A stretch of DNA of 64,000 nt, taken from assembly GCA_019671135.1 (NCBI GenBank), contig JAHRHY010000035.1, forward strand, positions 1 to 64,000. Reading direction: 5' to 3'. Below are positions 8,415-54,420 of this stretch, piece by piece. The DNA comes from Linnemannia hyalina. Its lineage: Eukaryota > Mortierellomycota > Mortierellomycetes > Mortierellales > Mortierellaceae. A program made the position numbers and the translations under genes. Position 1 is the first letter of the stretch; each line of letters starts with the position of its first letter. The notes under the pieces are model-generated. The model had not been told where the DNA came from. It did not search any database and was given only the letters and a program-made list of their open reading frames with translations.

Positions 8415-9363
8415 ACTTTTAAAATGTGCAATATATATACCTTCCATAAGTAGTATTATGGGAATTATTCCCAGGGAATTCATGTACTGTCAACCAAGCT
8501 GGTACCATTATCATCATGCTGTATATGCATGAGATTCACCGTGGACACACGTATAAATGCTATATATGTTATATGAACGTAGGTGTTTTAAAATGGTGGG
8601 CATAGCTTAACAAAAGACGAGAAAACAGGTGTACTCCCTCGCCCAAAAAAAAGCGCTCCAACCTTTTTGTCCTGCCCGATTACCGATATGTAAAATATGT
8701 TTATGTTGATACTCTCTCCTTACGTTTTGCTCTTGTAATACTGCTAGATAACTATGTCCATTTGGATTCTTTTGCTTTTGTATATGTACTCTTTGGAGGC
8801 CATCCATGTTCGGCTCCACCAACCATAGACTACAGTATAAAAATATCTGTCAACACCTATTAAAACAGTGTGTTCCTTGAGAGTACAACAAATCTCATCA
8901 GCTTTTTCCTTCCACCAGTCTCCATTTTCTACATTCACCACCACTACTTTGTAACATCATCTACTTTAGCTGAGAAAGCCTTGGACATGATCATCTCATA
9001 TTGGATCCTGGATATTACAGAGTGTAATTTCCTTTCCAATATGAGATGATCATGTCCAAGGCTTTCTCAGCTAAAGTAGATGATGTTACAAAGTAGTGGT
9101 GGTGAATGTAGAAAATGGAGACTGGTGGAAGGAAAAAGCTGATGAGATTTGTTGTACTCTCAAGGAACACACTGTTTTAATAGGTGTTGACAGATATTTT
9201 TATACTGTAGTCTATGGTTGGTGGAGCCGAACATGGATGGCCTCCTTTATAGATGTATTTGTTATCTTTTTAAAAACTCCTTCCATAATTGTCTGTACAA
9301 ATTCTTGCAACCTCCATTGGTATTCCATAACATATTCATCTATTTCGACCCAAGACGATTCCC
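8415..9363 (+). repeat. R repeat copy a, split by hairpin P1
   Basis: Apart from P1 (8795-9245) this matches 12806-13299 throughout. It ends TTTCGACCCAAGACGATTCCC and then joins a transposase fragment. The same end is joined to unrelated sequences in copies b, c and d. No coding potential is evident. It contains TTTTTAAAAA near 9268. Confidence 0.75.
8795..9245. mobile_element. P1, solo 451-bp hairpin element with TSD TTT
   Basis: Two perfect-looking 210-bp inverted arms (GGAGGCCATCCATG...CCTCC at the ends) flank a 31-nt unpaired centre containing a small ATTAC/GTAAT stem. TTT precedes and follows it. The paralogous empty site near 13173-13185 reads GTACTCTTTATAGAT with a single TTT, proving insertion with a 3-bp duplication. 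It behaves as a non-autonomous foldback element or a solo terminal repeat of element L. Confidence 0.92.
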
Positions 9364-11898: not shown

Positions 11899-11944
11899 AA
11901 TAAAAGGTATACTTAAGGTTTTAAAAAGTGTAAGATTTAGGTTG

Positions 11945-15225: not shown

Positions 15226-15471
15226 ATGCCAACACTTAAAGAAATTAAGCAAATAATAGCCATTTATATACATGAGCATCATATGCATCCTACAATGGCA
15301 ATGTACTTGAGAGCTGTTTTGTTACGTGGTAAGTCTCTGCAAGAACTTAATGGTATGTCAAAGGAAGAACTGTGGGGATTAGTAGACTTTTTTGCACCAG
15401 ATTTACAAAAACATATGCATACAATTGGTGCATTATCATGGTCAGCATACCAAAAATTTGCTTCAGAGTAA
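15226..15471 (+). CDS. Small protein upstream of Rep-like gene (81 aa), L1
   Basis: ATG at 15226; an out-of-frame ATG at 15221 lies just upstream. The product (MPTLKEIKQIIAIYIHEHH..., ending KFASE) looks helical, and no family is recognised. The L2 copy at 40631 keeps the frame with four changes (H/D, L/Q, T/A and YQ/HR), so it may be translated. It ends 55 bp before the Rep-like start, with TTTTTAAAAA in the gap. Confidence 0.55.
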   Translation: MPTLKEIKQIIAIYIHEHHMHPTMAMYLRAVLLRGKSLQELNGMSKEELWGLVDFFAPDLQKHMHTIGALSWSAYQKFASE

Positions 15472-15526
15472 AGTGGTTTTTAAAAAGTTTGTAGTACATA
15501 TCTCTGCAAACAGTAAGCTTTTCAAC

Positions 15527-17179
15527 ATGTCCGCTATACCTAAATCCATTAACAAGGCGCTGAACTCATATGCCCATCTTATCTCTGATGTGGGCAAAGA
15601 GATTGCATTGCCTGGCAAACCGAAGACTGGCTGGAAAAAGTACTCAGAGATATTCTGCGATAGTTTAATACTCTGGGGATTGCACAACCGGGCTGCACTT
15701 GTTGACGAGCAGCGCAAAAACACCACTTCCAATATTCGCGAAGCTTTTAAAGACCTCGATGTTAGCCACTCCATGGTTAAAGTTGTTAACGAGGGTTATA
15801 TCAAAGACAATAGTTTTTTTAGCTCTAAACTACTAGAAAAACATAGAAAAAAGTTTAGAAGTACGGCCTTATACCATGCAGGATATTTCAGCATTAAGGT
15901 AACGCTCAATGAACTGGAGGCCATCTCTTTAATTTCCGAGTTACCACCAATATTTCATGAGCTTGAGGTTGACTATGTTATTCTCCATGATATAGACATT
16001 GCTACGGATTGTAGATATGTTACAAGCCGTCCAATTCTTCAGCAATACCTTCAAGAGAGATTTGGAGAAGATTTGGATATTGCCGACGATCTCCATAAGG
16101 TTGGTAACCACTGTCTCTCTTGGTTTGGAGTTACCGAAAAAGACCAAAAGGTCCGTTGTAAGGTTTATAACAAACTTGTACAGATGTTGGAGAGTGCTGA
16201 AGTAAAAATGTCGTTGGGTTCAAGAATGGAAAATTTTGTTATGGATGTGGATAAGGACCTACATAAGAGACTTCGAAAGGCGAAGAAAACAGGTCTAACA
16301 AGACTTGAACTTACCTTTTATGGACAGGAGATATATACATTCTCCTATTATAAAGGAGTCTTGGATGCCATAAAGGAAGAGATCCAAGAATGTCCCACCT
16401 TCTGCGTAAAACACAAGGCATATTGGAAGTATATAGTTGGTAATATATCATCCATGGTAGGTATTCATGTAACAATGGGTGAAAAATCGGCATTCGCATA
16501 TTGCCATTGGTGGAACTCTGTTACAGGTAAGAAGTATGGTTCATATCGTAACAATGTCGAGAAAGAGGAAGCAATGACGTTGTTAGCCAACTATAGCTTC
16601 AACGATAGACCAATATACTTTTTGGAGGTTGAGATGGATGAGAATAGCATTAAGGATATTACAGTTACCAAGTACAAACGGCCTGACGAATGTACAGCAA
16701 TAACACTTGTTGCAGGAGCACATAAAGGCATGTACCCATACATTTACGATGATGACGTTTTACAATTCGAGGATATGGGTATAGTGGAGGTGGATAATGT
16801 AAAGATCCAATGGCCTGAGAGAAGAATCCGCAAAGGTGCACCACCAATTGTTGATATTCATCTAGAAAACATGAATGGTGAGAATTTTATACAAGTCCAT
16901 GATAGAGCTATCCACAAAGCAACATACAAAGCTGGATATAATGTACTTGAAATAAATACCAGCTATACAGTCATAGCAATTGCAATGGATATGTATCACA
17001 ACAAAGAATATATTTTTGCAACATTGTCCAATGGTATTAAAGTACGATGTGGACTTAGTTTAGAAACAAAGATCGTTGCATGGCTGGAAGAATATCCCGA
17101 TGGCCAAGTTCCGTATATGAATTTCACCACATTGCAATGCAGAACTGTTCGCGGGTTCAAGGATATTTATGTACGTTAA
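15527..17179 (+). CDS. Rep-like protein (550 aa), element L1
   Basis: The start MSAIPKS at 15527 was chosen because similarity to the element B homologue begins there; the frame is open further upstream (to 15392), but that part overlaps the 81-aa gene. Motifs: HDIDIATDC (residues 154-162), RCKVYNK (210-216), SLGSRMENF (229-237), TRLELTF (258-264) and FAYCHWWNS (323-331). The first three resemble, in order and spacing, strands of Rep_trans-type replication initiators; there is no HUH pair or P-loop, so this is only a weak lead. The C-terminal 200 residues look like beta-rich nucleic-acid-binding domains. It converges on the transposase over 37 bp. It might nick or bind the element arms; unproven. 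Confidence 0.6.
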   Translation: MSAIPKSINKALNSYAHLISDVGKEIALPGKPKTGWKKYSEIFCDSLILWGLHNRAALVDEQRKNTTSNIREAFKDLDVSHSMVKVVNEGYIKDNSFFSSKLLEKHRKKFRSTALYHAGYFSIKVTLNELEAISLISELPPIFHELEVDYVILHDIDIATDCRYVTSRPILQQYLQERFGEDLDIADDLHKVGNHCLSWFGVTEKDQKVRCKVYNKLVQMLESAEVKMSLGSRMENFVMDVDKDLHKRLRKAKKTGLTRLELTFYGQEIYTFSYYKGVLDAIKEEIQECPTFCVKHKAYWKYIVGNISSMVGIHVTMGEKSAFAYCHWWNSVTGKKYGSYRNNVEKEEAMTLLANYSFNDRPIYFLEVEMDENSIKDITVTKYKRPDECTAITLVAGAHKGMYPYIYDDDVLQFEDMGIVEVDNVKIQWPERRIRKGAPPIVDIHLENMNGENFIQVHDRAIHKATYKAGYNVLEINTSYTVIAIAMDMYHNKEYIFATLSNGIKVRCGLSLETKIVAWLEEYPDGQVPYMNFTTLQCRTVRGFKDIYVR

Positions 17180-17195
17180 GAATGCTAATAGATAG

Positions 17196-17205
17196 TTTTT
17201 AAAAA
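17196..17205. terminator. TTTTTAAAAA palindrome between Rep-like and transposase genes
   Basis: Sits in the 37-bp gap between two convergent stops (17179 and 17217). Same position in L2 (about 42601-42610) and in element B. Confidence 0.5.
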
Positions 17206-17216
17206 TTACAATGGGC

Positions 17217-18476
17217 TTACTTTGTACGCTTATATGATGGAATCTCTACTCCTGCAAAAATTTCACGTCGCTTATTAGTCGGCTCTTCCCGTTGTTTATC
17301 CTCGACATCCATAGTAGTCATCTCCAAGAACTGCTCTTGTAACTTTGTTATATCTCGTGCATTATGCAACATCTCATCCACTGGAATATAATCCAAGATT
17401 TGTTCCATTGCACCATTGGCATATGGAAAGTCGAAGCCATCTCTAATCCAGGCACTATGAATGGGTTCCAGATTTAACTGCAGTAGTGCCACCATCTTCT
17501 TGATGTTCATAAGTAAGAGACACAATCGCAATTGCAAATTATATGTTTCTATCTTGGTTACCAACACTGGTTTCCTATTGTTGTGCTTCTCAAAGGTTGC
17601 TCCAAGATCTCCAAATTCGGCTTCTATCTGAGAGCGGAAACTGCCGAAAATCTTATTGTAGTTAGTTTCATCTTGTGCAAGATCTTTCCCACGGCTTTTG
17701 CGAATTGGATAACAAAAGTTTTTCTTGCTCATGCTTGTTTCTTCTACTATTTTCTTAATGTATTGTGTGTACCCTCCATCCAATGCAATACAATCTAGCT
17801 CGTGGATGTGCTTATGTATCTTCATACCAACCAACATAGTACCATCGTTGTTATCCTTGCAAGGTAGCGATTTAGAGACTAGTATTGCCATGCCATTGCA
17901 ATCGACACACACTTGCGTTCTTACACCAGATTTCTTCAGCTTGTAAGAGTACATATCTGAGCTAGACTTTTCTTCACATGAAAGACGTGTATCATGACCA
18001 TCCAAATGCAATGTTACATGTGGGAATAGTGGTGGATTCCTGAGTTTAGCAGAAATCAAGCGTATAGGAAATGTGGAGAACATATTCGCAAGTGCATGGT
18101 TAATATGCTTCGAATGCACATTATAGTTAGTCTTGTAGAACTCTGTATGAATGGAGTGGAAACTACTTTTTGGTATGTGGGTTGACATTCCATCCATTGC
18201 CAAGCCTGCAACTAAGTGGTACAATATCAACAATCCTTTGTCGACTTCTCTGTATGGACCTGGATACTGCTTGAGAGACCAAATAACTACAAGAAAGTAG
18301 AATACAGGAATTGCACCTAATCTTCTTATAAGTAAGTCTTTAACAGTTTTCATGTGTGCTACTAGCTTCAACGCAGTCCTATGATTATTGGATGGTTCTT
18401 GCGTAGGCCATTCTGCATCCAAAAAAGTCCATTCATCCTCTAACAACCGTTGAAATAGGCGCTTTAAGTTTGCCAT
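17217..18476 (-). CDS. PIF/Harbinger-like DDE transposase (419 aa), L1
   Basis: The start MANLKRLFQ at 18476 aligns with MDLTKHFQQ of the D transposase. Catalytic motifs: HVTLHLDGHDTR (first D), DCIALDGGYTQY (second D) and FGSFRSQIEAEFGDLG (E). The R-x-x-E-x-x-F-G block is characteristic of DDE_4/HARBI1-type enzymes, and the 3-bp duplications found for these elements fit that superfamily. It should cut and join element ends in the nucleus. No separate Myb-like partner, normal for Harbinger, was found; the Rep-like protein takes that place. The gene begins just inside the right arm, so the promoter is probably in the arm. Confidence 0.8.
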   Translation of the reverse strand: MANLKRLFQRLLEDEWTFLDAEWPTQEPSNNHRTALKLVAHMKTVKDLLIRRLGAIPVFYFLVVIWSLKQYPGPYREVDKGLLILYHLVAGLAMDGMSTHIPKSSFHSIHTEFYKTNYNVHSKHINHALANMFSTFPIRLISAKLRNPPLFPHVTLHLDGHDTRLSCEEKSSSDMYSYKLKKSGVRTQVCVDCNGMAILVSKSLPCKDNNDGTMLVGMKIHKHIHELDCIALDGGYTQYIKKIVEETSMSKKNFCYPIRKSRGKDLAQDETNYNKIFGSFRSQIEAEFGDLGATFEKHNNRKPVLVTKIETYNLQLRLCLLLMNIKKMVALLQLNLEPIHSAWIRDGFDFPYANGAMEQILDYIPVDEMLHNARDITKLQEQFLEMTTMDVEDKQREEPTNKRREIFAGVEIPSYKRTK

Positions 18477-18495
18477 GACTGTAATTACAACCTGG

Positions 18496-19864
18496 TAAAC
18501 TATTAGCAAAAATTCCTTTATATAACACACTTTTGGATTTTTTAAAACTATTAACGATAAACACGATAGGGGAGCAAGCCCCTCAACCAGATGTTAAAGT
18601 ACTTCATCATGGCGGTTTTGCGACCACTTTTTTGTAACCACCAATTTTCTCCCAACCACCAAAGTATACAAACGATATTTTATAGACATTTCCTAAGTCT
18701 ACATAACTTTTATTTATACAACTTCTTTTTTCTGTCTTGTTATCACACAAAATGCGATAGAAATGTCACAATGTTCATACCCATTTGCATCACGAAATAT
18801 GTGATACGTTTTAAGAAACGTCTATTTTAAACGACATAATTACTCTGTTAACAACACATTTTCTCTACCTTATTATCACACAAAATGCGATAGAAACGCC
18901 ACGATGTTCATACCCATTTGCATCACGAAATATGGGATACGTTTTAAGAAACGTCTATTTTAAACGACATAATTATTCTGTTAACAACTTCTTTTTTCTG
19001 TCTTGTTATCACACAAAATGCGATAGAAATGTTACAATGTTCATACCCATTTGCATCACGAAATATGTGATGTGTTTTAAGAAACGTCCATTTTTAACGA
19101 CATAATTGCTCTTTAAACAACACATTTTCTCTACCTTATTATCATACAAAATGCGATAGAAATGTTACAATGTTCATACCCATTTGCATCACGAAATATG
19201 TGATGTGTTTTAAGAAACGTCTATTTTTAACGATATAATTACTCTATTAACAACACATTTTTTCTATCTTGTTATCACACAAAATGCAATAGAAACGTTG
19301 TAATATAATAGCCATTTGCATTATAAAATATGTGATGTGTTTTAAGAACGTCTATTTTAAACGATATAATTGTTATATCTACAACTACCCACAATACATG
19401 GTCTAATTGCGATATCTCTGTTTTTACCATTGTCGTAATTACCTACAATCTGTATAACAATAAATGCTATAACAATTGTAAGTTAACCAAAGTGTAATAA
19501 TATTAAACGTCGTGCAAATCGTGGGCTTACCTAAAGTATGTCAACATTAAACATTGTAATACTTACGAGTTTATCAAGAATGTATTAAAATTAAACATCA
19601 CAATAATCACGAGGTAATCCAAAATGCGTTCATATCAAATATCATAACTGTGGTAATAACTACAGTTTGTCAGCTGTCGAATCGAATGCCGAATGTCAAA
19701 TGTCGAATGTCGAATATTGTTGAGAAAGTGTAGCAATAACGCCATTAAAAACGTATCAGCTACCCTTTCTTTCCAACAACCAATGTTTGTTAAAGCCACT
19801 ATGCTACTTTTTTAAAAAATGGGATCCAACTTTTTTTTAAAACTACCACTACATCATCACCAGT
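18496..19864 (-). repeat. L1 right inverted arm
   Basis: Mirror of 13710-15078 with the same number of 133-bp units. Ends CATCATCACCAGT. A further 101 bp (19865-19965), present at both ends of L2, leads to CTACTA and hairpin P2. Confidence 0.85.
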
Positions 19865-19965: not shown

Positions 19966-20416
19966 GGAGGCCATCCATGTTCGGCTCCACCAACCATAGA
20001 CTACAGTATAAAAATATCTGTCAACACCTATTAAAACAGTGTGTTCCTTGAGAGTACAACAAATCTCATCAGCTTTTTCCTTCCACCAGTCTCCATTTTC
20101 TACATTCACCACCACTACTTTGTAACATCATCTACTTTAGCTGAGAAAGCCTTGGACATGATCATCTCATATTGGATCCTAGATATTACAGATAGTAATT
20201 TCCTTTCCAATATGAGATGATCATGTCCAAGGCTTTCTCAGCTAAAGTAGATGATGTTACAAAGTAGTGGTGGTGAATGTAGAAAATGGAGACTGGTGGA
20301 AGGAAAAAGCTGATGAGATTTGTTGTACTCTCAAGGAACACACTGTTTTAATAGGTGTTGACAGATATTTTTATACTGTAGTCTATGGTTGGTGGAGCCG
20401 AACATGGATGGCCTCC
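19966..20416. repeat. P2, 451-bp hairpin at the right end of L1
   Basis: Same 210-bp arms as P1. The central loop reads ATCCTAGATATTACAGATAG, the opposite orientation to P4, which sits at the equivalent position of L2. The left flank is CTA and the right flank ATA, so it is not a solo insertion but the edge of L1 where it entered another gene. Confidence 0.88.
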
Positions 20417-34974: not shown

Positions 34975-34983
34975 GCGGCCTCC
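34975..34983 (-). other. 9-bp scar (GCGGCCTCC) with TAT duplication in D1
   Basis: Flanked by TAT on both sides. D3 has the uninterrupted site. The 9 bp equal the two ends of S fused at their shared GGCC, as expected if a solo S inserted with TSD and then collapsed by recombination at GGCC. The same scar is in D2 at 57215-57223, so it predates the split of D1 and D2. Confidence 0.7.
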
Positions 34984-35296: not shown

Positions 35297-37558
35297 CTAC
35301 TCTTCTGCGGTCTCAAATGTTACTTCAAGAGGCTTCTTTTCTTCCATCGTACTTTTCTCTTTGGCTTGAATACTATCTAATACACTTTGCACTATGGTTT
35401 TTCTGTTGTTAGATCCTTCTTTTGCAAACTTACATAATATATCGGAATGTGGTTCGCGGGAACCAAACTTATCCATGTGCCATGTTTCGTAGTTGGAATA
35501 ATCTTTCTCCAACAAACCTAGGTGAAAAATTAGTTCTTTTTCTTCTGCATTACCATCTGCCGAAACGTATTCCTCGCGGAGTTCTTCTTCGATAGCTGTT
35601 ATTTTGCTATATACTTCTCCCATTGCCTTCAGAAAATCATGATGGTCTTTTGTAGTGTAAACACTTGAGGCATTCACATTTTCGCTTTCCATAGGTCCAC
35701 CATCTTCTAGAGTTTTCTTAACATCCGACTCTTGCACCTCATCATCTACTTTTTCTACAAGTTCATCTAAAGTTTCCTTAATATTCGACTCTTGCACCTC
35801 ATCATCTATTTTTTCTACCGGTTCACCTTTCTCTGTCGACCTATCCTTAGACCATTGTGGCTTAAAGCCCATAGCAAAGATCTTTTCTTTTTCCTTTTGG
35901 TTAAGATTATCATAGTCGACATTCTCTGCACCAATGTGGTCATCAGTCACCAAGCCAACTACAATGTTTTGCTTGCGGATCTTGAGAATGTGCTTTCCAT
36001 TTACAAGTACATTCTTGGAATACTCCAATTGCTGCTTGTGAAACCTTTTCCATTTCATCTTGGATATATCTGTCGGTCCTTCCACTGGTAGTTCCTCTTC
36101 TACTTCGACCTCCTCGTTGAAAAGCATCTTTCTCTCTTCATCAGACATTTCTTGAAGTTTCATCTTGCTAAGCATGGAGCGTTCCAAGATATCCATCTCT
36201 GGAACATCACCACCGCCACGCAGATGATCAAGCGTAAACAGGCCAACGTATGTATTCTTTCCACATAGCTTGACAATGTACTTAGCCTTCATCGTAAAGT
36301 TAGTTGCATACTCAAGCATGTCGTTATTAGGATGAACCATCCATCCTCCATCCTTTGCAAGTGGTATGTCTTTCTCTGATCTAATGTTACGCACCGTTGT
36401 GGCCAGTGCAAATGTGTGTTCATCTTTTTCATCCTTAGAAACATCTACATTAGAAGATGGCTCTGCATTTTTGGGCATCTCTGAATGCCTTTTCTTTCGA
36501 GAAGTCTTCTTCTCATCATCCTTAGATGGCTTTTTATGAGATAGTTTTTCATCAGGGTTATCCTTAGAGGTATCATCTCCAGATTCTACATCAGGTCTGT
36601 TATTGGACTTGCCATCATCAGAGTCTTTATCTTTAGAGGAATCATCGTCAGAGTCAGCATTATCAGACGTATCACCATCATCTGTATCATCGTCAGAATT
36701 CTCATCAGCAGAAGACTCTTCTATTTTTTCTACATCTGCTGAAGTTGCCTCTTGAAGACCCATCTTGGCCAATATGCGTGCCTCTTTCTCAGATATTTCT
36801 GGCGCAGGGAGATTCTTGCCCATGAGCTTAGGTGGACACAATGCAATGTAGAGATTCTTTTCCTTTAGCCTAATAATGTACTTGCCATTTACAGTAAAGC
36901 TTTTTGCATACAGGAAAGCTGGATTAGTTGCATAACGCGTCCATATACATGTATTAGCGAGTGGTACATTTTTCTTGGACGTTATGTCAACTACCTTTGG
37001 ACTCAACGGAAAGGAGACGGCAATTATATCTTCTTCATCATCATCATTGGACGGCTCTTCATCCGATGACTCCTGCTTGTTTCTCTTTCGCTTCTTTGGT
37101 TCTTCATCCTCGGAAGTCATATCGTCATCGGAAGACACAAACTTAGAAGTATGTGTCTTCTTTAAAGCCTTGGAAGACTTGGTACGCTTGTCGACAGGTG
37201 CGTTGTTGTTACTACGTTTTATATAACCTCTATCTTGATCTTGATGACGTCCACAGTATGTTTGACCAAGTTTGGCTACACTACCACAATTAGCACCCTT
37301 AATAGTTGTGCCTTGACACTTGCGCGCAGGATCGTGGACATAACAATGCATGCCTTCATCATCAACTTCCTTCATGCATTTGCGCTTGGACTTGGTGCAC
37401 TTTTCTCCACAAAAGTAGTATCTCTCTACTTCCTCATCCTCATCAAGCGCCTTAAAGATCTTATTTGCATCTTTCTTGTTAAACTCCACTCCCTTCTTAG
37501 AGGAGAATGTCTCAAAGGCCTTGGTGATGAGCTCGATTGTAAGCTGAACGTACTTCAT
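35297..37558 (-). CDS. 753-aa protein of element D1 (zinc-binding, repeated module)
   Basis: ATG at 37558. Residues about 45-110 contain Cys/His clusters (YYFCGEKC...KRKC; HCYVHDPARKCQG; NCGSV...TYCGRHQ), probably two zinc-binding motifs of a type common in large DNA viruses. Three diverged copies of a roughly 70-residue module follow at about 205-275, 410-480 and 505-575, with pattern Y-A-x-(N/S)...G-K-Y-I-(V/I)-(K/R)-L...K-N-x-Y-(I/V)-(G/A)-L...K-M-(G/K)-L. Between them lie long acidic Ser/Asp runs. The C-terminus is Glu/Lys-rich. No enzymatic motif is seen; a DNA-binding or structural role is a guess. The D2 copy differs at only two residues. Confidence 0.78.
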   Translation of the reverse strand: MKYVQLTIELITKAFETFSSKKGVEFNKKDANKIFKALDEDEEVERYYFCGEKCTKSKRKCMKEVDDEGMHCYVHDPARKCQGTTIKGANCGSVAKLGQTYCGRHQDQDRGYIKRSNNNAPVDKRTKSSKALKKTHTSKFVSSDDDMTSEDEEPKKRKRNKQESSDEEPSNDDDEEDIIAVSFPLSPKVVDITSKKNVPLANTCIWTRYATNPAFLYAKSFTVNGKYIIRLKEKNLYIALCPPKLMGKNLPAPEISEKEARILAKMGLQEATSADVEKIEESSADENSDDDTDDGDTSDNADSDDDSSKDKDSDDGKSNNRPDVESGDDTSKDNPDEKLSHKKPSKDDEKKTSRKKRHSEMPKNAEPSSNVDVSKDEKDEHTFALATTVRNIRSEKDIPLAKDGGWMVHPNNDMLEYATNFTMKAKYIVKLCGKNTYVGLFTLDHLRGGGDVPEMDILERSMLSKMKLQEMSDEERKMLFNEEVEVEEELPVEGPTDISKMKWKRFHKQQLEYSKNVLVNGKHILKIRKQNIVVGLVTDDHIGAENVDYDNLNQKEKEKIFAMGFKPQWSKDRSTEKGEPVEKIDDEVQESNIKETLDELVEKVDDEVQESDVKKTLEDGGPMESENVNASSVYTTKDHHDFLKAMGEVYSKITAIEEELREEYVSADGNAEEKELIFHLGLLEKDYSNYETWHMDKFGSREPHSDILCKFAKEGSNNRKTIVQSVLDSIQAKEKSTMEEKKPLEVTFETAEE

Positions 37559-37768
37559 GTTTTTGGATATGAATAATATGGATTGTACTTGTGGTATGGT
37601 GGGTGTGAATGAGTTTTCAGTTTATGTGTGGTAGATTGCAGCTGCTTAGTACACTGATATAAAGAATTGCAATAAAAGATGGTTGTATAGGTATGGATGG
37701 TTGTATAGATATGGATAATTGTTGGTTGGTTACTAGATAAAGATTAAGCAAGAGGGAAGTGGACTCCT

Positions 37769-37778
37769 TTATTTATAC
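37769..37778 (-). promoter_or_regulatory. TATA box of the 753-aa gene (D1)
   Basis: TATAAATAAA on the minus strand, about 210 bp upstream of the start codon, followed by a leader with repeated TATACAACCATCCAT units. Identical in D2. Confidence 0.5.
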
Positions 37779-38160
37779 TAATTCAGGAACACTGCCACAA
37801 TGGACATTAATAGCGCTTGCTTATTAGCACTGCTTGGCGCTTAGTAACAAAAGAGTTTTAAAAAGGCATCTAAGTGGTTAATAATGTAGTGTTCCTCGTA
37901 TGACGTAGATCTTGCTTATTAAGACTGCTTGGCATTAAAGACGGGGTTTAAAAATGGTTAAGAATGTAGTATTATTTTATGACGTAGGTTTGTACATGTG
38001 TTTATCCTCTTTGTTAAATAAAAAGGAATGCTGTAGAATAGCATAGAATAGCATCCGATCTACTACAATAATACCATGGCTTTTAATAATAGATACCGGT
38101 GCATATTAGCGTCTTGGCAGTTAATACCGTATCTTAAAGCTGACTAAATAGGCCATGTAT

Positions 38161-38611
38161 GGAGGCCATCCATGTTCGGCTCCACCAACCATAGACTACA
38201 GTATAAAAATATCTGTCAACACCTATTAAAACAGTGTGTTCCTTGAGAGTACAACAAATCTCATCAGCTTTTTCCTTCCACCAGTCTCCATTTTCTACAT
38301 TCACCACCACTACTTTGTAACATCATCTACTTTAGCTGAGAAAGCCTTGGACATGATCATCTCATATTGGAAAGGAAATTACTATCTGTAATATCCAGGA
38401 TCCAATATGAGATGATCATGTCCAAGGCTTTCTCAGCTAAAGTAGATGATGTTACAAAGTAGTGGTGGTGAATGTAGAAAATGGAGACTGGTGGAAGGAA
38501 AAAGCTGATGAGATTTGTTGTACTCTCAAGGAACACACTGTTTTAATAGGTGTTGACAGATATTTTTATACTGTAGTCTATGGTTGGTGGAGCCGAACAT
38601 GGATGGCCTCC
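38161..38611. repeat. P3, left terminal hairpin of L2
   Basis: 451 bp, 210-bp arms; loop AAAGGAAATTACTATCTG... in the orientation opposite to P1 and P2. Confidence 0.92.
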
Positions 38612-40483
38612 TAGTAGAGCATTTGTTTTCGTGTTTATATAATTAGCGATGGTTACTAATATCTCCTTTTCATGATATATCCTATGTGTATATCCAATAT
38701 AGCACTCGTGATACTGGTGATGATGTAGTGGTAGTTTTAAAAAAAAAGTTGGATCCCGATTTTTTTAAAAAGTAGCATAGTGGCTTTAACAAACATTGGT
38801 TGTTGGAAAGAAAGGGTAGCTGATACGTTTTTAATGGCGTTATTGCTACACTTTCTCAACAATATTCGACATTCGACATTTGACATTCGGCATTCGATTC
38901 GACAGCTGACAAACTGTAGTTATTACCATAGTTATGATATTTGATATGAACGCATTTTGGATGACCTCGTGATTATCGTGATGTTTAATTTTAATACATT
39001 CTTGATAAACTCGTAAGTATTACAATGTTTAATGTTGACATACTTTAGGTAAGCCCACGATTTGCACGACGTTTAATATTATTACACTTTGGTTAACTTA
39101 CAATTGTTATAGCATTTATTGTTATACAGATTGTAGGTAATTACGACAATGGTAAAAACAGAGATATCGCAATTAGACCATGCATTGTGGGTAGTTGTAG
39201 ATATAACAATTATATCGTTTAAAATAGACGTTTCTTAAAACACATCACATATTTTATAATGCAAATGGCTATTATATTACAACGTTTCTATTGCATTTTG
39301 TGTGATAACAAGATAGAAAAAATGTATTGTTAATAGAGTAATTATGTCGTTAAAAATAGACGTTTCTTAAAACTTATCACATATTTCGTGATGCAAATGG
39401 ATATAAACATCGTGGCGTTTCTATCGCATTTTGTGTGATAATAAGGTAGAGAAAATGTGTTGTTAACAGAGTAATTATGTCGTTTAAAATGGACGTTTCT
39501 TAAAACGTATCACATATTTCGTGATGCCAATGGGTATAAACATTGTGACATTTCTATCGCATTTTGTGTGATAATAAGATAGAAAAAATGTGTTGTTAAC
39601 AGAGTAATTATGTCGTTTAAAATAGACGTTTCTTAAAACTTATCACATATTTCGTGATGCAAATGGGTATGAACATTGTGACATTTCTATCGCATTTTGT
39701 GTGATAATAAGGTAGAGAAAATGTGTTGTTAACAGAGTAATTATGTCGTTTAAAATGGACGTTTCTTAAAACTTATCACATATTTCGTGATGCAAATGGG
39801 TATGAACATTGTGACATTTCTATCGCATTTTGTGTGATAATAAGGTAGAGAAAATGTGTTGTTAACAGAGTAATTATGTCGTTTAAAATGGACGTTTCTT
39901 AAAACGTATCACATATTTCGTGATGCAAATGGGTATGAATATTGTGACATTTCTATCGCATTTTGTGTGATAACAAGACAGAAAAAAGAAGTTGTTAACA
40001 GAATAGTTATGTCGTTTAAAATAGACGTTTCTTAAAACACATTACATATTTCGTGATGCAAATGGGTATGAACATTGTGACATTTCTATTGCATTTTGTG
40101 TAATAATAAGGTAGAGAAAATGTGTTGTTTAAAGAGCAACTATGTCTTTAAAAATAGACGTTTCTTAAAACGTACCCCATATTTCGTGATGCAAATGGGT
40201 ATGAACATTGTGACATTTCTATCGCATTTTGTATGATAACAAGACAGAAAAAAGAAGTTGTATAAATAAAAGTTATGTAGACTTAGGAAATGTCTATAAA
40301 ATATCGTTTGTATACTTTGGTGGTTGGGAGAAAATTGGTGGTTACAAAAAAGTTGTCGCAAAACCGCCATGATGAAATACTTTGACATCTGGTTGAGGGG
40401 CTTGTTCCCCTATCGTGTTTATCGTTAATAGTTTTAAAAAATCCAAAAGTGTGTTATATAAAGGAATTTTTGCTAATAGTTTA
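38612..40483 (+). repeat. L2 left arm with about eight 133-bp units
   Basis: GACGTTTCTTAAAAC recurs at about 39227, 39359, 39492, 39625, 39758, 39891, 40024 and 40157, a spacing of 132-133 bp. Outer extension from TAGTAGAGCATTTG to CACTCGTGAT, then ACTGGTGATG as in L1. It is 532 bp, four units, shorter than the right arm. Confidence 0.88.
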
Positions 40484-40630
40484 CGTTTAAATTCTCTTGA
40501 AATAGATGATATATGCATTATATTTCTATCCAATCTATCATGGAATATGAGATAACTTCTTTTATAGTGCAACAAATCTAAAAGTGTATTGTAGTATAGG
40601 CATTTTTCCTAATGGTTTACTAGTTATGCA

Positions 40631-40876
40631 ATGCCAACACTTAAAGAAATTAAGCAAATAATAGCCATTTATATACATGAGCATCATATGGATCCTACAA
40701 TGGCAATGTACTTGAGAGCTGTTTTGTTACGTGGTAAGTCTCAGCAAGAACTAAATGGTATGTCAAAGGAAGAACTGTGGGGATTGGTAGACTTTTTTGC
40801 ACCAGATTTACAAAAACATATGCATGCAATTGGAGCATTATCATGGTCAGCACACAGAAAATTTGCTTCAGAGTAA
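40631..40876 (+). CDS. Small protein upstream of Rep-like gene (81 aa), L2
   Basis: Second copy of the L1 small ORF with the same start, length and 55-bp spacing to the Rep-like gene. It differs at a few positions (for example HMDPT for HMHPT and GKSQQE for GKSLQE) without breaking the frame. Confidence 0.55.
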   Translation: MPTLKEIKQIIAIYIHEHHMDPTMAMYLRAVLLRGKSQQELNGMSKEELWGLVDFFAPDLQKHMHAIGALSWSAHRKFASE

Positions 40877-40931
40877 AGTGGTTTTTAAAAAGTTTGTAGT
40901 ACATATCTCTGCAAACAGTAAGCTATTCAAC

Positions 40932-42584
40932 ATGTCCGCTATACCTAAATCCATTAACAAGGCGCTGAACTCATATGCCCATCTTATCTCTGATGTGGGC
41001 AAAGAGATTGCATTGCCTGGCAAACCGAAGACGGGCTGGAAAAAGTACTCAGAGATATTCTGCGATAGTTTAATACTCTGGGGATTGCACAACCGGGCTG
41101 CACTTGTTGACGAGCAGCGCAAAAACACCACTTCCAATATTCGCGAAGCTTTTAAAGGCCTCGATGTTAGCCACTCCATGGTTAAAGTTGTTAACGAGGG
41201 TTATATCAAAGACAATAGTTTTTTTAGCTCTAAACTACTAGAAAAACATAGAAAAAAGTTTAGAAGTTCGGCCTTATACCATGCTGGTTACTTTAGCATT
41301 AAGGTAACGCTCCATGAACTAGAGGCCATATCTCTAATATCCGAGATAATACCAATACTTGATGAACTGGAGGTTGACTACGTTATCCTTCATGATATAG
41401 ATATTGCTACGGATTGTAGATATGTCACAAGCCGTCCAATTCTTCAACAGTACCTTCAAGAGAGATTTGGAGAAAATTTAGATATTGCCAACGATCTCCA
41501 TAAGGTTGGTAACCACTGTCTTTCTTGGTTTGGAGTCACCGAAAAAGACCAAAAGGTCCGTTGTAAGGTCTACAACAAACTTGTACAGATGTTGGAGAGT
41601 GCTGAAGTAAAAATGTCGTTGGGTTCAAGAATGGAGAATTTTGTCATGGATGTGGATAAGGACCTACATAAGAGACTTCGAAAGGCAAAGAAAACAGGTC
41701 TAACAAGACTTGAACTTACCTTTTATGGACAGGAGATATATACATTCTCCTATTATAAAGGAGTTTTGGATGCCATAAAGGAAGAGATCCAAGAATGTCC
41801 CACCTTCTGCGTAAAGCACAAGGCATATTGGAAGTACATAGTTGGCAATATATCATCCATGGTAGGTATTCATGTAACAATGGGTGAAAAATCGGCATTC
41901 GCATATTGCCATTGGTGGAACTCTGTTACAGGTAAGAAGTATGGTTCATATCGTAACAATGTCGAGAAAGAGGAAGCAATGACGTTGTTAGCCAACTATA
42001 GCTTCAACGATAGACCAATATACTTTTTGGAGGTTGAGATGGATGAGAATAGCATCAAGGATATTACAGTTACCAAGTACAAACGGCCTGACGAATGTAC
42101 AGCAATAACACTTGTTGCAGGAGCACATAAAGGCATGTACCCATACATTTACGATGATGATGTTTTACAATTCGAGGATATGGGTATAGTGGAGGTAGAT
42201 AATGTAAAGATCCAATGGCCTGAGAGAAGAATCCGCAAAGGTGCACCACCAATTGTTGATATTCATCTAGAAAACATGAATGGTGAGAATTTTATACAAG
42301 TCCATGATAGAGCTATCCACAAAGCAACATATAAAGCTGGATATAATGTACTTGAAATAAATACCAGCTATACAGTCATAGCAATTGCAATGGATATGTA
42401 TCACAACAAAGAATATATTTTTGCAACATTGTCCAATGGTATTAAAGTACGATGTGGACTTAGTTTAGAAATAAAGATCGTTGCATGGCTGGAAGAATAT
42501 CCCGATGGCCAAGTTCCGTATATGAATTTCACCACATTGCAATGCAGAACTGTTCGCGGGTTCAAGGATATTTATATACGTTAA
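40932..42584 (+). CDS. Rep-like protein (550 aa), element L2
   Basis: Same start and length as in L1. Differences cluster at residues 125-190 (for example SEIIPILDELEVDY for SELPPIFHELEVDY; ENLDIAND for EDLDIADD), while HDIDIATDC, RCKVYNK and TRLELTF are unchanged. That patch may reflect gene conversion from another lineage. Convergent with the transposase; TTTTTAAAAA lies in the 37-bp gap. The same limits on functional assignment apply as for L1. Confidence 0.6.
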   Translation: MSAIPKSINKALNSYAHLISDVGKEIALPGKPKTGWKKYSEIFCDSLILWGLHNRAALVDEQRKNTTSNIREAFKGLDVSHSMVKVVNEGYIKDNSFFSSKLLEKHRKKFRSSALYHAGYFSIKVTLHELEAISLISEIIPILDELEVDYVILHDIDIATDCRYVTSRPILQQYLQERFGENLDIANDLHKVGNHCLSWFGVTEKDQKVRCKVYNKLVQMLESAEVKMSLGSRMENFVMDVDKDLHKRLRKAKKTGLTRLELTFYGQEIYTFSYYKGVLDAIKEEIQECPTFCVKHKAYWKYIVGNISSMVGIHVTMGEKSAFAYCHWWNSVTGKKYGSYRNNVEKEEAMTLLANYSFNDRPIYFLEVEMDENSIKDITVTKYKRPDECTAITLVAGAHKGMYPYIYDDDVLQFEDMGIVEVDNVKIQWPERRIRKGAPPIVDIHLENMNGENFIQVHDRAIHKATYKAGYNVLEINTSYTVIAIAMDMYHNKEYIFATLSNGIKVRCGLSLEIKIVAWLEEYPDGQVPYMNFTTLQCRTVRGFKDIYIR

Positions 42585-42621
42585 GAATGCTAATAGATAG
42601 TTTTTAAAAATTACAATGGGC

Positions 42622-43881
42622 TTACTTTGTACGCTTATATGATGGAATCTCCACTCCTGCAAAAATTTCACGTCGCTTATTAGTCGGCTCTTCCCGTTGT
42701 TTATCCTCGACATCCATAGTAGTCATCTCCAAGAACTGCTCTTGTAACTTTGTTATATCTCGTGCATCATGCAACATCTCATCCACTGGAATATAATCCA
42801 AGATTTGTTCCATTGCACCATTGGCATATGGAAAGTCGAAGCCATCTCTAATCCAGGCACTATGAATGGGTTCCAGATTTAACTGCAGTAGTGCCACCAT
42901 CTTCTTGATGTTCATAAGTAAGAGACACAATCGCAATTGCAAATTATATGTTTCTATCTTGGTTACCAACACTGGTTTCCTATTGTTGTGCTTCTCAAAG
43001 GTTGCTCCAAGATCTCCAAATTCGGCTTCTATCTGAGAGCGGAAACTGCCGAAAATCTTATTGTAGTTAGTTTCATCTTGTGCAAGATCTTTCCCACGGC
43101 TTTTGCGAATTGGATAACAAAAGTTTTTCTTGCTCATGCTTGTTTCTTCTACTATTTTCTTAATGTATTGTGTGTACCCTCCATCCAATGCAATACAATC
43201 TAGCTCGTGGATGTGCTTATGTATCTTCATACCAACCAACATAGTACCATCGTTGTTATCCTTGCAAGGTAGCGATTTAGAGACTAGTATTGCCATGCCA
43301 TTGCAATCGACACACACTTGCGTTCTTACACCAGATTTCTTCAGCTTGTAAGAGTACATGTCTGAGCTAGACTTTTCTTCACATGAAAGACGTGTATCAT
43401 GACCATCCAAATGCAATGTTACATGTGGGAATAGTGGTGGATTCCTGAGTTTAGCAGACATCAAGCGTATAGGAAATGTGGAGAACATATTCGCAAGTGC
43501 ATGGTTAATATGCTTCGAATGCACATTATAGTTAGTCTTGTAGAACTCTGTATGAATGGAGTGGAAACTACTTTTTGGTATGTGGGTTGACATTCCATCC
43601 ATTGCCAAGCCTGCAACTAAGTGGTACAATATCAACAATCCTTTGTCGACTTCTCTGTATGGACCTGGATACTGCTTGAGAGACCAAATAACTACAAGAA
43701 AGTAGAATACAGGAATTGCACCTAATCTTCTTATAAGTAAGTCTTTAACAGTTTTCATATGTGCTACTAGCTTCAACGCAGTCCTATGATTATTAGATGG
43801 TTCTTGCGTAGGCCATTCTACATCCAAAAAAGTCCATTCATCCTCTAACAACCGTTGAAATAGGCGCTTTAAGTTTGCCAT
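42622..43881 (-). CDS. PIF/Harbinger-like DDE transposase (419 aa), L2
   Basis: Start MANLKRLFQ at 43881. All three catalytic motifs (LDGHDTR, LDGGYTQY and RSQIEAEFGDL) are intact. Three residues differ from L1 (LDVEW, IRLMSAK, LHDARD). Because L2 has complete ends, a fresh target duplication and intact genes, this is the likeliest active enzyme of the family in the window. Confidence 0.82.
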   Translation of the reverse strand: MANLKRLFQRLLEDEWTFLDVEWPTQEPSNNHRTALKLVAHMKTVKDLLIRRLGAIPVFYFLVVIWSLKQYPGPYREVDKGLLILYHLVAGLAMDGMSTHIPKSSFHSIHTEFYKTNYNVHSKHINHALANMFSTFPIRLMSAKLRNPPLFPHVTLHLDGHDTRLSCEEKSSSDMYSYKLKKSGVRTQVCVDCNGMAILVSKSLPCKDNNDGTMLVGMKIHKHIHELDCIALDGGYTQYIKKIVEETSMSKKNFCYPIRKSRGKDLAQDETNYNKIFGSFRSQIEAEFGDLGATFEKHNNRKPVLVTKIETYNLQLRLCLLLMNIKKMVALLQLNLEPIHSAWIRDGFDFPYANGAMEQILDYIPVDEMLHDARDITKLQEQFLEMTTMDVEDKQREEPTNKRREIFAGVEIPSYKRTK

Positions 43882-43900
43882 GACTGTAATTACAACCTGG

Positions 43901-46304
43901 TAAACTATTAGCAAAAATTCCTTTATATAACACACTTTTGGATTTTTTAAAACTATTAACGATAAACACGATAGGGGAACAAGCCCCTCAACCAGATGTC
44001 AAAGTATTTCATCATGGCGGTTTTGCGACAACTTTTTTGTAACCACCAATTTTCTCCCAACCACCAAAGTATACAAACGATATTTTATAGACATTTCCTA
44101 AGTCTACATAACTTTTATTTATACAACTTCTTTTTTCTGTCTTGTTATCATACAAAATGCGATAGAAATGTCACAATGTTCATACCCATTTGCATCACGA
44201 AATATGGGGTACGTTTTAAGAAACGTCTATTTTTAAAGACATAGTTGCTCTTTAAACAACACATTTTCTCTACCTTATTATTACACAAAATGCAATAGAA
44301 ATGTCACAATGTTCATACCCATTTGCATCACGAAATATGTAATGTGTTTTAAGAAACGTCTATTTTAAACGACATAACTATTCTGTTAACAACTTCTTTT
44401 TTCTGTCTTGTTATCACACAAAATGCGATAGAAATGTCACAATATTCATACCCATTTGCATCACGAAATATGTGATACGTTTTAAGAAACGTCCATTTTA
44501 AACGACATAATTACTCTGTTAACAACACATTTTCTCTACCTTATTATCACACAAAATGCGATAGAAATGTCACAATGTTCATACCCATTTGCATCACGAA
44601 ATATGTGATAAGTTTTAAGAAACGTCCATTTTAAACGACATAATTACTCTGTTAACAACACATTTTCTCTACCTTATTATCACACAAAATGCGATAGAAA
44701 TGTCACAATGTTCATACCCATTTGCATCACGAAATATGTGATAAGTTTTAAGAAACGTCTATTTTAAACGACATAATTACTCTGTTAACAACACATTTTT
44801 TCTATCTTATTATCACACAAAATGCGATAGAAATGTCACAATGTTTATACCCATTGGCATCACGAAATATGTGATACGTTTTAAGAAACGTCCATTTTAA
44901 ACGACATAATTACTCTGTTAACAACACATTTTCTCTACCTTATTATCACACAAAATGCGATAGAAACGCCACGATGTTTATATCCATTTGCATCACGAAA
45001 TATGTGATGTGTTTTAAGAAACGTCTATTTTTAACGACATAATTACTCTGTTAACAACACATTTTTTCTATCTTATTATCACACAAAATGCGATAGAAAT
45101 GTCACAATGTTTATACCCATTGGCATCACGAAATATGTGATACGTTTTAAGAAACGTCCATTTTAAACGACATAATTACTCTGTTAACAACACATTTTCT
45201 CTACCTTATTATCACACAAAATGCGATAGAAATGTCACAATGTTCATACCCATTTGCATCACGAAATATGTGATAAGTTTTAAGAAACGTCTATTTTAAA
45301 CGACATAATTACTCTGTTAACAACACATTTTTTCTATCTTATTATCACACAAAATGCGATAGAAATGTCACAATGTTTATACCCATTGGCATCACGAAAT
45401 ATGTGATACGTTTTAAGAAACGTCCATTTTAAACGACATAATTACTCTGTTAACAACACATTTTCTCTACCTTATTATCACACAAAATGCGATAGAAACG
45501 CCACGATGTTTATATTCATTTGCATCACGAAATATGTGATAAGTTTTAAGAAACGTCTATTTTTAACGACATAATTACTCTATTAACAATACATTTTTTC
45601 TATCTTGTTATCACACAAAATGCAATAGAAACGTTGTAATATAATAGCCATTTGCATTATAAAATATGTGATGTGTTTTAAGAAACGTCTATTTTAAACG
45701 ATATAATTGTTATATCTACAACTACCCACAATGCATGGTCTAATTGCGATATCTCTGTTTTTACCATTGTCGTAATTACCTACAATCTGTATAACAATAA
45801 ATGCTATAACAATTGTAAGTTAACCAAAGTGTAATAATATTAAACGTCGTGCAAATCGTGGGCTTACCTAAAGTATGTCAACATTAAACATTGTAATACT
45901 TACGAGTTTATCAAGAATGTATTAAAATTAAACATCACGATAATCACGAGGTCATCCAAAATGCGTTCATATCAAATATCATAACTATGGTAATAACTAC
46001 AGTTTGTCAGCTGTCGAATCGAATGCCGAATGTCAAATGTCGAATGTCGAATATTGTTGAGAAAGTGTAGCAATAACGCCATTAAAAACGTATCAGCTAC
46101 CCTTTCTTTCCAACAACCAATGTTTGTTAAAGCCACTATGCTACTTTTTAAAAAAATCGGGATCCAACTTTTTTTTTAAAACTACCACTACATCATCACC
46201 AGTATCACGAGTGCTATATTGGATATACACATAGGATATATCATGAAAAGGAGATATTAGTAACCATCGCTAATTATATAAACACGAAAACAAATGCTCT
46301 ACTA
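43901..46304 (-). repeat. L2 right arm with about twelve 133-bp units
   Basis: Inverted relative to the left arm but with four more tandem units, showing expansion or contraction by unequal exchange. Ends CAAATGCTCTACTA before P4. Confidence 0.88.
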
Positions 46305-46755
46305 GGAGGCCATCCATGTTCGGCTCCACCAACCATAGACTACAGTATAAAAATATCTGTCAACACCTATTAAAACAGTGTGTTCCTTGAGAGTACAACA
46401 AATCTCATCAGCTTTTTCCTTCCACCAGTCTCCATTTTCTACATTCACCACCACTACTTTGTAACATCATCTACTTTAGCTGAGAAAGCCTTGGACATGA
46501 TCATCTCATATTGGAAAGGAAATTACTATCTGTAATATCCAGGATCCAATATGAGATGATCATGTCCAAGGCTTTCTCAGCTAAAGTAGATGATGTTACA
46601 AAGTAGTGGTGGTGAATGTAGAAAATGGAGACTGGTGGAAGGAAAAAGCTGATGAGATTTGTTGTACTCTCAAGGAACACACTGTTTTAATAGGTGTTGA
46701 CAGATATTTTTATACTGTAGTCTATGGTTGGTGGAGCCGAACATGGATGGCCTCC
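46305..46755. repeat. P4, right terminal hairpin of L2
   Basis: 451 bp; the loop has the same orientation as P3 and the opposite orientation to P2 at the equivalent end of L1. Followed by TAT. Confidence 0.92.
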
Positions 46756-46787
46756 TATGTCTATTCTTTTAAAAACCTGCAATAAGT

Positions 46788-48730: not shown

Positions 48731-51700
48731 CCAGAGTTAAGTTACAGTTCCAAGAATAAAAATTCTGCTATCAAAAACACTCCCCCCTCTGTATCCATTA
48801 TTCGCACTACCACATCCGCACCTCGTAGCCTACACAAACTCTCCTTCTCTCCTCCTCCACTCTCCCTTTTTCCCTCATCCATCCCTGCCTCGCCTCGTAC
48901 TCCCTCCTCAATTGCCATCGACTCGACCACCACTGCCCCCAACACTCACTCCACCACGGTACCCTTTGACGATGAGTTACAACTCACCGACGACGTATCT
49001 GATACCTCGTCTGTTGGTCTTAGCCCATCAGAAGAAGTGGACCTGGACCCACTCTCCTCTCCTGCTGCTTTAGACCAACCCATGTCCAAGCGCAGGACCA
49101 AACGCTTGCGACACAAATCCGTCCGCCTGCACGCTTTTACGGCCGAGAAAGCCTCCCGTACGCTCTTGTCGTTTATTGGTAATGTGGCTGGTGCCCCTGG
49201 GCGTATTTTAATCGATTGCGGTGCGGAAGGGAACGTCATCAGTTCTTCTTTTTGCAAACAACACTCCCTCACTCGCACTCCTGGCCCCTCCATCCCCATC
49301 ATCCTTCCAAACGGTTCCTCTTCCATTTCATCATCCACCTCCACCTTTACCATCGACCGCGACCACTACTCCGACAAACTGGAAGCACTCGTTTACCCCC
49401 TCTCCAACTACGACCTCATCCTTGGAAAACCCTGGCTAACGACCATCAACCCTTTCATCAACTGGCGAAACAACGACCTTCACTTCACCCACAATGGACA
49501 CACTGTTCTCTGGCGCTGTCGTGGTGCCAACGCCAACTCCATCTCCGCTCGCACACAAGGGAAACTCCTCTCTCACCTTCACTTTCACTCCCTTGCTACC
49601 CAACCTGGAAACGCTGTCTACCTCGCCCTCGTCAAAATCGCTAAAAAGACCAACGACAACAACAGTAACGACAACAAGCCGACCTCCCCTCCACTCTCAC
49701 CCGACATTCACAACATCGTCCACAACGAGTTCCCCGACGTTTTCCCTTCCTCCCTCCCCTCTGGCCTTCCCCCTGACAGAGGCGATGCAATGAAGATCGA
49801 AACTGATCCGAGCGCTGATCCCCCCTTTCGCCCTGTTATACGTCTCTCGATTGCTGAATTGGATGAACTACGGAAGCAACTCGACGACCTACTTGGCAAA
49901 GGCTTTATCAAACCCTCTACCTCCCCTTATGGTGGCCCTGTGTTGTTTGTAAAAAAGAAGGATGGTTCCTTGCGTATGTGTGTTGATTACAGAGGGTTAA
50001 ACCGGATTACAAAAAAGAACAGACACCCCCTTCCCCGCATTGATGAACTTATCGACCGTTTCCGCGGGGCACGCTACTTTACCAAACTTGACCTCCTCTC
50101 CGGTTACCATCAGCAACGTATAGCAGAAGAGGACACACACAAGACAGCCTTCCGTTGCCGCTACGGCCATTTCGAATTTAATGTGGTCCCTTTCGGGTTA
50201 ACGAATGCACCGGCGTCCTTCTCCAATATGATGCTACGAGTATTAGACCCTGTTCTCGACAAGTGGGTTGTTGTTTACCTCGACGACATTCTTATCTACT
50301 CGCGCACCGAGGCCGAACATCTACAACATCTCCGATCCGTCCTCACGCTCCTCCGCAAGTACGGTCTCTACGCCAAGTTGAGCAAGTGCTCCTTTATGCA
50401 GGAAGAGACCGAGTTCCTCGGCCACGTCATCTCCAAGGACGGTATCCACACGAGCGGCGGTCTCGTTCGTGCCATCCGTGAATGGCCCCGTCCCCAGAAG
50501 CAGAAAGATGTTCAGCAGTTTGTTGGTCTTGCACAGTTCTATCATCAGTACATCGCTAACTTTGCCTCGATCGCCCTACCGTTGACCGCTCTCTTAGGTG
50601 AAGGCGTTCCTTTCTCTTGGTCTCAGGAGCAGGAAGTAGCGTTTACGACTCTGAAGGAGGCCATCAGTAAAGCACCTGTTCTACGTATCTTCGACCCCGA
50701 CCTTCTAACAACCGTCGAAACCGATGCCTCCGGCTTTGCTCTCGGTGCCGTTCTCTTTCAGACCGATGAGCATGGCGAGTCGCGCCCCGTCGCCTTCACC
50801 TCCCGCAAGCTGAACTCTGCCGAACGCAACTACCCAACACACGAACAGGAACTGTTGGCTGTTGTACATGCATTGAAGACATGGCGCTACTATCTGGACG
50901 GATCCCACTTCATTGTATACACCGACCATGCCACCCTCCAACACTTCCCCACTCAACCCAAACTCACCCGCCGTCAGGCCCGCTGGATGGAACTGTTGCA
51001 GGAATACAACTTCACCTTCAAGTATAAGAAAGGAGCCGACAACATTGTCCCAGATGCCCTGTCTCGCCGACCGGACCATAGAGAGATTAACACACTCTCA
51101 GTACAGCTCGACCCCAGGCTCCGGCAGCGCCTGATGGATGGTTACAAAGAGGATCACCGCCTCAAACCGATCTATGAAAGCTGCCTCCAGGGAAGTCCAC
51201 CGTCTAATTACTCTCTTGTTGATGGTGTTCTTTGCATTCAACGTAATGATCTTTTACTTGTTTGTATCCCCTCGAACTCTGACCTTCGGCTTTCTCTTCT
51301 TCACGATGCACACGACTCCGCTATAGCTGGTCACTTCGGTTTCGAGAAGACGTACGGTCATCTCCACTCGCGGTTCTTCTGGCCATCTATGGCGAAGGAC
51401 ACCCGGCTGTATGTGCAGACCTGTGAGTCGTGCCAAAGGACTAAGCCCAGCAACCAACCACCTGCTGGCCTCCTCCAGCCCCTACCCATTCCCGATCGAC
51501 CCTGGCAAACGGTGACAATGGACTTTGTCGGCCCCCTACCCAAGACCCCACGCGGCTTTGACTCCATTACGGTCTTTGTTGACAAACTCACAAAGCAAGT
51601 GCACTTTGCCCCCTGCCACACCACCGACTCCGCCTCGCAAGTTGCACGCATTTTTTTCGACCATGTTTTCCGCTTGCACGGCATGCCGACCACTATTGTC

Positions 51701-54008: not shown

Positions 54009-54420
54009 ACTTATTGCAGGTTTTTAAAAGAATAGACATACATGGCCTATTTAGTCAGCTTTAAGATACGGTATTAACTGCCAAGACGCTAATATGCACC
54101 GGTATCTATTATTAAAAGCCATGGTATTATTGTAGTAGATCGGATGCTATTCTATGCTATTCTACAGCATTCCTTTTTATTTAACAAAGAGGATAAACAC
54201 ATGTACAAACCTACGTCATAAAATAATACTACATTCTTAACCATTTTTAAACCCCGTCTTTAATGCCAAGCAGTCTTAATAAGCAAGATCTACGTCATAC
54301 GAGGAACACTACATTATTAACCACTTAGATGCCTTTTTAAAACTCTTTTGTTACTAAGCGCCAAGCAGTGCTAATAAGCAAGCGCTATTAATGTCCATTG
54401 TGGCAGTGTTCCTGAATTAG

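Follow-up and report, generated by a model that had tools for sequence, protein, structure and literature searches.

How are the ends of a chromosomal transposon copied when these ends are long palindromes, and can the route be read from the palindromes themselves? The question is raised by a locus in the fungus Linnemannia hyalina, where the analysed stretch of 64,000 nucleotides (the window: positions 1 to 64,000 of contig JAHRHY010000035.1, assembly GCA_019671135.1, denoted C29 in the genome scan) contains a complete mobile element, L2, of a family that we denote L. This element has a hairpin at each end and convergent genes for a Rep-like protein and a transposase in its body. The answer considered here, to which we assign a probability of about one half, is that L is a DDE_Tnp_4 transposon whose end palindromes vary through hairpin-primed copying, of the parvovirus-like, rolling-hairpin kind, driven by the predicted Rep_trans-like nuclease that it encodes. 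The two hairpin orientations, ‘flip’ and ‘flop’, found in a chromosomal transposon offer a readable trace of how its ends get copied.

Orientation of the terminal palindromes

Repeat analysis, an empty site and the table of complete elements place L2 at 38161..46755 (8595 bp), inside a larger element, D. It is bordered by two copies of the 3-bp target duplication TAT (38158..38160 and 46756..46758), and its flanks, once joined, reproduce the sequence around the empty site of the other, paralogous D arm (54023..54052, minus strand) in 200 of 200 bases, with one TAT at the join; the claim of an earlier note on this DNA that L2 is a single mobile unit with exact ends is thus borne out. The terminal hairpins (38161..38611, loop 38372-38400, and 46305..46755, loop 46516-46544, both on the plus strand) are 451-bp palindromes identical to each other, each composed of 211-bp perfect arms and a 29-nt loop, the left one in the flip and the right one in the flop state. 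In the earlier note, this direct orientation counted as part of the element's structure; the genome has four combinations of end states, of which it is one.

The whole genome (51.5 Mb, 50 contigs) was scanned with the loop pattern, allowing at most 3 mismatches, which gave 101 loops; 92 hairpins were read from the 100 loops listed, the remaining 8 being left out. With an element end defined as a hairpin adjoined by body sequence, these comprise 60 element ends, 30 solo hairpins and 2 hairpins with body on both sides; a third hairpin flanked by body on both sides, on C9, belongs to a shorter kind. The direction of the loop relative to the body divides the 60 ends almost evenly (28 flip and 32 flop), and so it does the 52 distinct outer flanks, of which 25 show one state, 25 the other and 2 both.

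Adjacent ends form 21 pairs, that is, candidate elements, and 16 of these have matching 3-bp duplications, compared with 29 of 420 mismatched control pairs; the 5 pairs without a matching triplet, including C11:13270 and the pair on C13, were excluded from the 16. All four combinations of end states occur among the matched elements (5, 5, 4 and 2). In 14 of the 16, both ends carry the same variable base in the loop (permutation p 0.0001), whereas the loop orientation is the same in 10 (p 0.45), so that no dependence between the ends is detectable. The loop sequence, then, travels with the element, and its orientation does not. On this comparison of sequences, each palindrome is inverted in its own right, and foreign hairpins are not simply pasted in, because in that case base and orientation would not part company in this manner.

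Inversion of the hairpins is also faster than substitution. Seven elements at seven places (two on C11, two on C13 and one each on C29, C33 and C44) have 0 differences in the 3.4-kb core, yet their states vary: flop/flop, flip/flip, flip/flop, flip/shared, flip/flop, flop/flip and flop/flop. Matching triplets are missing in the first and the fourth of these, and C11:13270 and the C13 pair, both excluded from the 16, are among the seven. A truncated form of the hairpin, in which one arm has given rise to a new 26-nt loop, is found at L135, L136, C9:2288 and five other places; this kind, too, is seen in both orientations, with one unambiguous end each.

The Rep-like protein and its partner genes

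The cassette of L2 consists of a gene for a 550-aa protein (40932..42584, plus strand), a convergent gene for a 419-aa transposase (42622..43881, minus strand) and, upstream, a small open reading frame (ORF; 40631..40876, plus strand) of 81 aa without a Pfam match. A stretch similar to the latter precedes the Rep-like protein in the relative P0021, and the small ORF is possibly a 5' exon of the Rep-like gene. The structure model of the 550-aa protein has a predicted local distance difference test score (pLDDT) of 93, and its predicted sheet fold resembles, as a weak structural match, that of the Rep_trans rolling-circle initiators. A putative active site can be assigned by motif and strand against the reference residues, as opposed to a residue-level structural alignment: D44, D156, Y213, K215, R258 and E260 (numbering from the residue after Met). 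The triad D, D, E lies on separate strands, the tyrosine is on a strand with the lysine two residues on, and the arginine and glutamate form an R-x-E motif. Among 69 relatives, D44, R258 and E260 are present in 69, D156 in 68, and Y213 and K215 each in 68 with one gap; the entire set of metal triad, tyrosine, lysine and arginine is found in 67 of the 69. The 550-aa protein is therefore predicted, from the model and the sequence family, to be a Rep_trans-like nuclease and a nicking initiator, which agrees with the ‘initiator-like’ reading in the earlier note.

That note had also named what would speak against it, namely, a structure prediction pointing to an ordinary DNA-binding partner of Harbinger elements and the absence of the cassette from other genomes; neither was observed. 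Neither the Rep-like protein nor its 69 relatives (at E <= 0.03) have a credible Myb/SANT or YqaJ match, and the small ORF has neither; 1 of the 69 relatives has a SANT-type match, with E of 0.055. No HUH or superfamily 3 (SF3) Rep-type Pfam match was obtained for the Rep-like protein, the 69 relatives or the small ORF, and the family profile found nothing among the PDB sequences and nothing credible in Pfam. A profile search of 5.8 billion proteins yielded 115, all of the same fungal family, with the named ones from Mortierella-type fungi (including Mortierella, Linnemannia, Podila, Haplosporangium and Actinomortierella) or Mucorales (Apophysomyces and Rhizomucor), and at the sensitivity of these scans, no relatives were found in viral contigs, prokaryote genome contigs, plasmids or phages.

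The transposase is PHIS/DDE_Tnp_4-like by its sequence (PHIS: PIF/Harbinger-ISL2EU-Spy), with a match to DDE_Tnp_4 (PF13359) at 31.0 bits against a cut-off of 24.8 and the same domain in 118 of the 120 relatives listed (the best 120 of 278); the PDB sequences contain no relative of it. A chromodomain (PF00385) is common among the transposase relatives P0179-P0237 (among the matches listed), and one gene for a chromodomain transposase occurs with a Rep-like gene (P0093/P0193) on equal-sized contigs of the same source.

The genes lie between inverted arms, the left at 38612..40484 (plus strand) and the right at 43900..46304 (minus strand). An inverted-repeat pair with 97% identity (38401-40278 and 44638-46515) encloses arrays of 133-bp repeats, with 7.8 copies on the left (39208..40243, plus strand) and 11.8 on the right (44141..45708, minus strand); the one unit examined contains an inverted repeat, ATCAC-7-GTGAT. 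The earlier note had described these arms of 133-bp repeats, together with the 451-bp hairpins, and both are confirmed.

Routes to inverted hairpins

With flip/flop ends and the gene of a predicted nicking initiator side by side, the reading that most simply covers both is copying primed by the hairpin, with the inversion arising at terminal resolution. Rep would nick at or near the foot or the tip of the hairpin, and the freed 3' end would fold back or extend through the opened palindrome, so that the loop is turned over; the 133-bp arrays would act as binding sites. The DDE transposase would take the linear product at its GGAGGCC ends and insert it with a 3-bp duplication, with which the duplications at the L elements are consistent; it could also move the hairpin alone, giving rise to solo copies, because both sides of the palindrome bear this end sequence. 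The possibility of a replicative stage, raised in the earlier note, gains support from the flip/flop ends, and replication itself we still only infer, along with nicking, strand displacement and an extrachromosomal stage.

Two kinds of observation weigh against this reading. The Rep_trans profile, PF02486, has 0 matches in the genome and in 0 of the 69 family members at E <= 0.03, and is absent among the 25 families listed of the 53 at E <= 10 for the Rep-like family. Furthermore, copies at the same site are not uniform in state. State is kept in one same-flank group (C5, C6, C19 and C23, where the copies on C6, C19 and C23 all lie 8058 bases from the contig end) and in the pair C29/C37, with cores that differ by 13 bases, whereas two other same-site groups, C12 versus C29 and C9, C13 and C16, differ in state; the cores of C12 and C29 have 260 base differences and gaps, so that this is not a plain duplicate. 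The differing groups fit better with L being an ordinary cut-and-paste, PHIS-type transposon, in which the host inverts the loops, through extrusion of cruciforms, template switching or recombination between the arms, either while an excision is being repaired or in place, and the Rep-like protein assists by binding DNA. This is the main rival, and the instability that is general to perfect palindromes counts for it, as does the presence of a second DNA-binding protein, with an unclear role, in most known PHIS transposons (PMC4482050). It does not account for the full putative nuclease active site that is kept in the Rep-like family, nor for the retention of state by same-flank duplicates while zero-difference copies at different sites vary. 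The latter contrast favours inversion at transposition or replication, on small numbers (no more than two groups, with p of about 1/16 at best). All considered, the host-repair account is less probable than hairpin-primed copying and deserves to be kept in view.

Recombination acts on L as well, as judged from the hairpins with body on both sides and from same-site copies with different bodies. Hairpins of this two-sided type were considered as replication dimers, and this was dropped for the one on C13, with its different bodies and unmatched outer triplets. Exchange with the many other hairpins, solo or terminal, by ectopic gene conversion or crossing-over could, in principle, randomise orientation, given that the hairpins are nearly identical at most of the 92 places read and that there are three two-sided ones; however, random exchange would mix the loop base along with the orientation, contrary to the concordance of the base within elements, and for the 16 elements, crossovers between loci are made less likely by the matching duplications. 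Already weakened in this way, exchange is an improbable source of the flips.

A different proposal concerns origin rather than mechanism: the hairpin itself would be the primary mobile unit, a miniature inverted-repeat transposable element (MITE), and L a composite of two such copies flanking a body. The 30 solo hairpins, which include three half palindromes (L062, L102 and L117) and one cut by a contig end (L089), speak for it; a perfect 3-bp duplication is found at 19 of the 29 with readable flanks, compared with 87 of 812 in the control, and one of them lies in the window (8795..9245, minus strand, TTT/TTT). On these sequence comparisons, the palindrome moves or is left alone. The target spectrum of the solo copies is also unlike that of L: the 16 matched L elements have ATG, CAT, TAG, ATA, TAT, AAA, TTT, TTA and TAA, and triplets of the ATA/ATG type occur at 8 of the 16, as opposed to 0 of the 19 solo hairpins (Fisher p 0.0005, with the grouping chosen post hoc), so that the solo hairpins are probably more than leftovers of today's L elements. 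Against the MITE origin stand the flanks of the 92 hairpins, which form two clear classes: a body that begins at one fixed base, with a similarity of 0.97-1.0, or no body, with <=0.5. In addition, the adjoining 50 bases of the hairpin are present at every one of the 40 body ends that were scored out of 224 candidates; the unit has long moved as a whole. The MITE origin, which leaves the flips unexplained, is less likely than not.

Relatives, genomic setting and known systems

The cassette recurs, as the earlier note proposed from the window. The genome contains at least 80 matches to the Rep-like protein, at least 48 of them with 73-100% and at least 32 with 39-40% identity. Both relatives in the window are real: L1, with a Rep-like gene (plus strand) and a convergent ORF (minus strand) occupying the place of the DDE gene (15392..18530), and a right hairpin in the flip state (19966..20416, minus strand); and the B-type sequence at ~8361-13710, within which the solo hairpin mentioned above is located. 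B elements have 413-bp repeat arms, and their Rep-like protein is 39% identical to the L protein. In the intact B copy L121, a small ORF (3819-4091, plus strand), a Rep-like gene (plus strand) and a DDE gene (minus strand) follow one another as they do in L; no hairpin of the L kind was seen at the arms of L121, the one copy read, and B was set aside as an independent flip/flop case. In other fungi, a survey that covered 112 of 113 Rep matches and the best 120 of 278 DDE matches found Rep-like and DDE proteins together on equal-sized contigs of the same source in 12 pairs, spread over 11 contigs, where the shifted control averaged 1.1 and did not exceed 7, and in Haplosporangium bisporale the two proteins have adjacent locus tags, BGZ52_005333 and BGZ52_005334.

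The family crowds at chromosome ends: 30 of the 39 L places and 20 of the 25 B places are within 80 kb of a contig end, a zone that makes up 7.9% of the sequence in the 23 contigs used (with 3 second pieces merged, leaving 45 of 48 L matches, and 6 L and 7 B places on short or unknown-size contigs skipped). B elements are clustered, often at contig ends (L121; C12:1.86-1.93 Mb, C16:737-806 kb, C11, C19, C20, C33 and C49). The telomere repeat is the 10-mer TTTTTTAGGG, present at 8 of the 12 contig ends read; TTAGGG x3, tried as the telomere pattern, was a wrong guess.

The host of L2, element D, has perfectly complementary 3.2-kb arms (34962-38161 and 54037-57236) with a 753-aa ORF in each, the one scanned being without a significant Pfam match, and two DDE_Tnp_4 genes, of which the one compared is 56% identical to the DDE gene of L. 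L2 and the L element at C12:3784747-3791038 differ in their bodies and sit at one identical base of the D target, which may reflect a hot spot or body exchange. Retrotransposon genes (reverse transcriptase, RNase H, protease, integrase and gag) lie around and inside the DNA elements, at 263-2803, 4349-7397 and 49037-52138 of the window.

A bolder reading, at somewhat less than even odds, is that L founds a new class of mobile elements in eukaryotes. It would replicate as a linear molecule with hairpin ends, by means of a Rep_trans-type initiator of its own that would be the first known from any eukaryote, and integrate with its DDE transposase; such an element would stand between parvovirus-like replicons and cut-and-paste transposons, and its copies, in flip and flop, would be seeded into fungal subtelomeres. 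If the flips are the work of the Rep-like nuclease, a eukaryotic element unites a plasmid-type replication initiator with a DDE transposase, which bears on the origin of hairpin-ended replicons such as parvoviruses, and the role of the second proteins in PHIS transposons becomes directly testable. A search of the literature in one open-access library, with Repbase entries outside its scope, found, among the best hits listed, neither a Rep_trans-like second protein nor flip/flop palindromic ends in a transposon; for flip/flop together with transposons, the hits were 2 unrelated papers. A word search of a paper on fungal DNA transposons (PMC12730594) found no mention of Mortierella-type fungi.

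With the PHIS transposons (PIF/Harbinger-ISL2EU-Spy, Pangu and Nuwa), L shares the DDE_Tnp_4 transposase, the AT-rich 3-bp duplications and the presence of two genes. In those groups, the second protein is mostly Myb/SANT or YqaJ and each group has its own triplet, for example, ANT for Pangu and CWG for NuwaI (PMC4482050), whereas the second gene of L is Rep_trans-like, its 16 elements show a variety of triplets in place of one fixed for the group, and its ends are 451-bp palindromes next to kilobase arms with 133-bp arrays. With the Rep_trans initiators (RepSTK1, and RepD/RepC of pT181-type plasmids) and the MOBT relaxases, the L protein may share the sheet fold, which is predicted and a weak structural match, and it has the D, D, Y, K, R, E set in the same order; unlike them, it resides in a eukaryotic transposon, has 550 aa with a C-terminal half of no assigned family, and lacks a PF02486 match. 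In adeno-associated virus (AAV), the two orientations of the inverted terminal repeats, independent at each end, are taken as evidence for rolling-hairpin replication (PMC11575299). L shares with parvoviruses and AAV the terminal palindromes in flip and flop, with no detectable dependence between the ends, but inserts in the chromosome with a 3-bp duplication, presumably via the DDE enzyme. The Rep of rolling-hairpin replicons of the parvovirus type combines an HUH endonuclease with an SF3 helicase; in L, there is no capsid, and no such Rep is recognised. Finally, Helitrons and Replitrons, the HUH transposons, are eukaryotic transposons with a nuclease of the rolling-circle type; L differs from these by its nuclease, which is predicted to have another fold, and by the presence of a DDE transposase gene within the unit.

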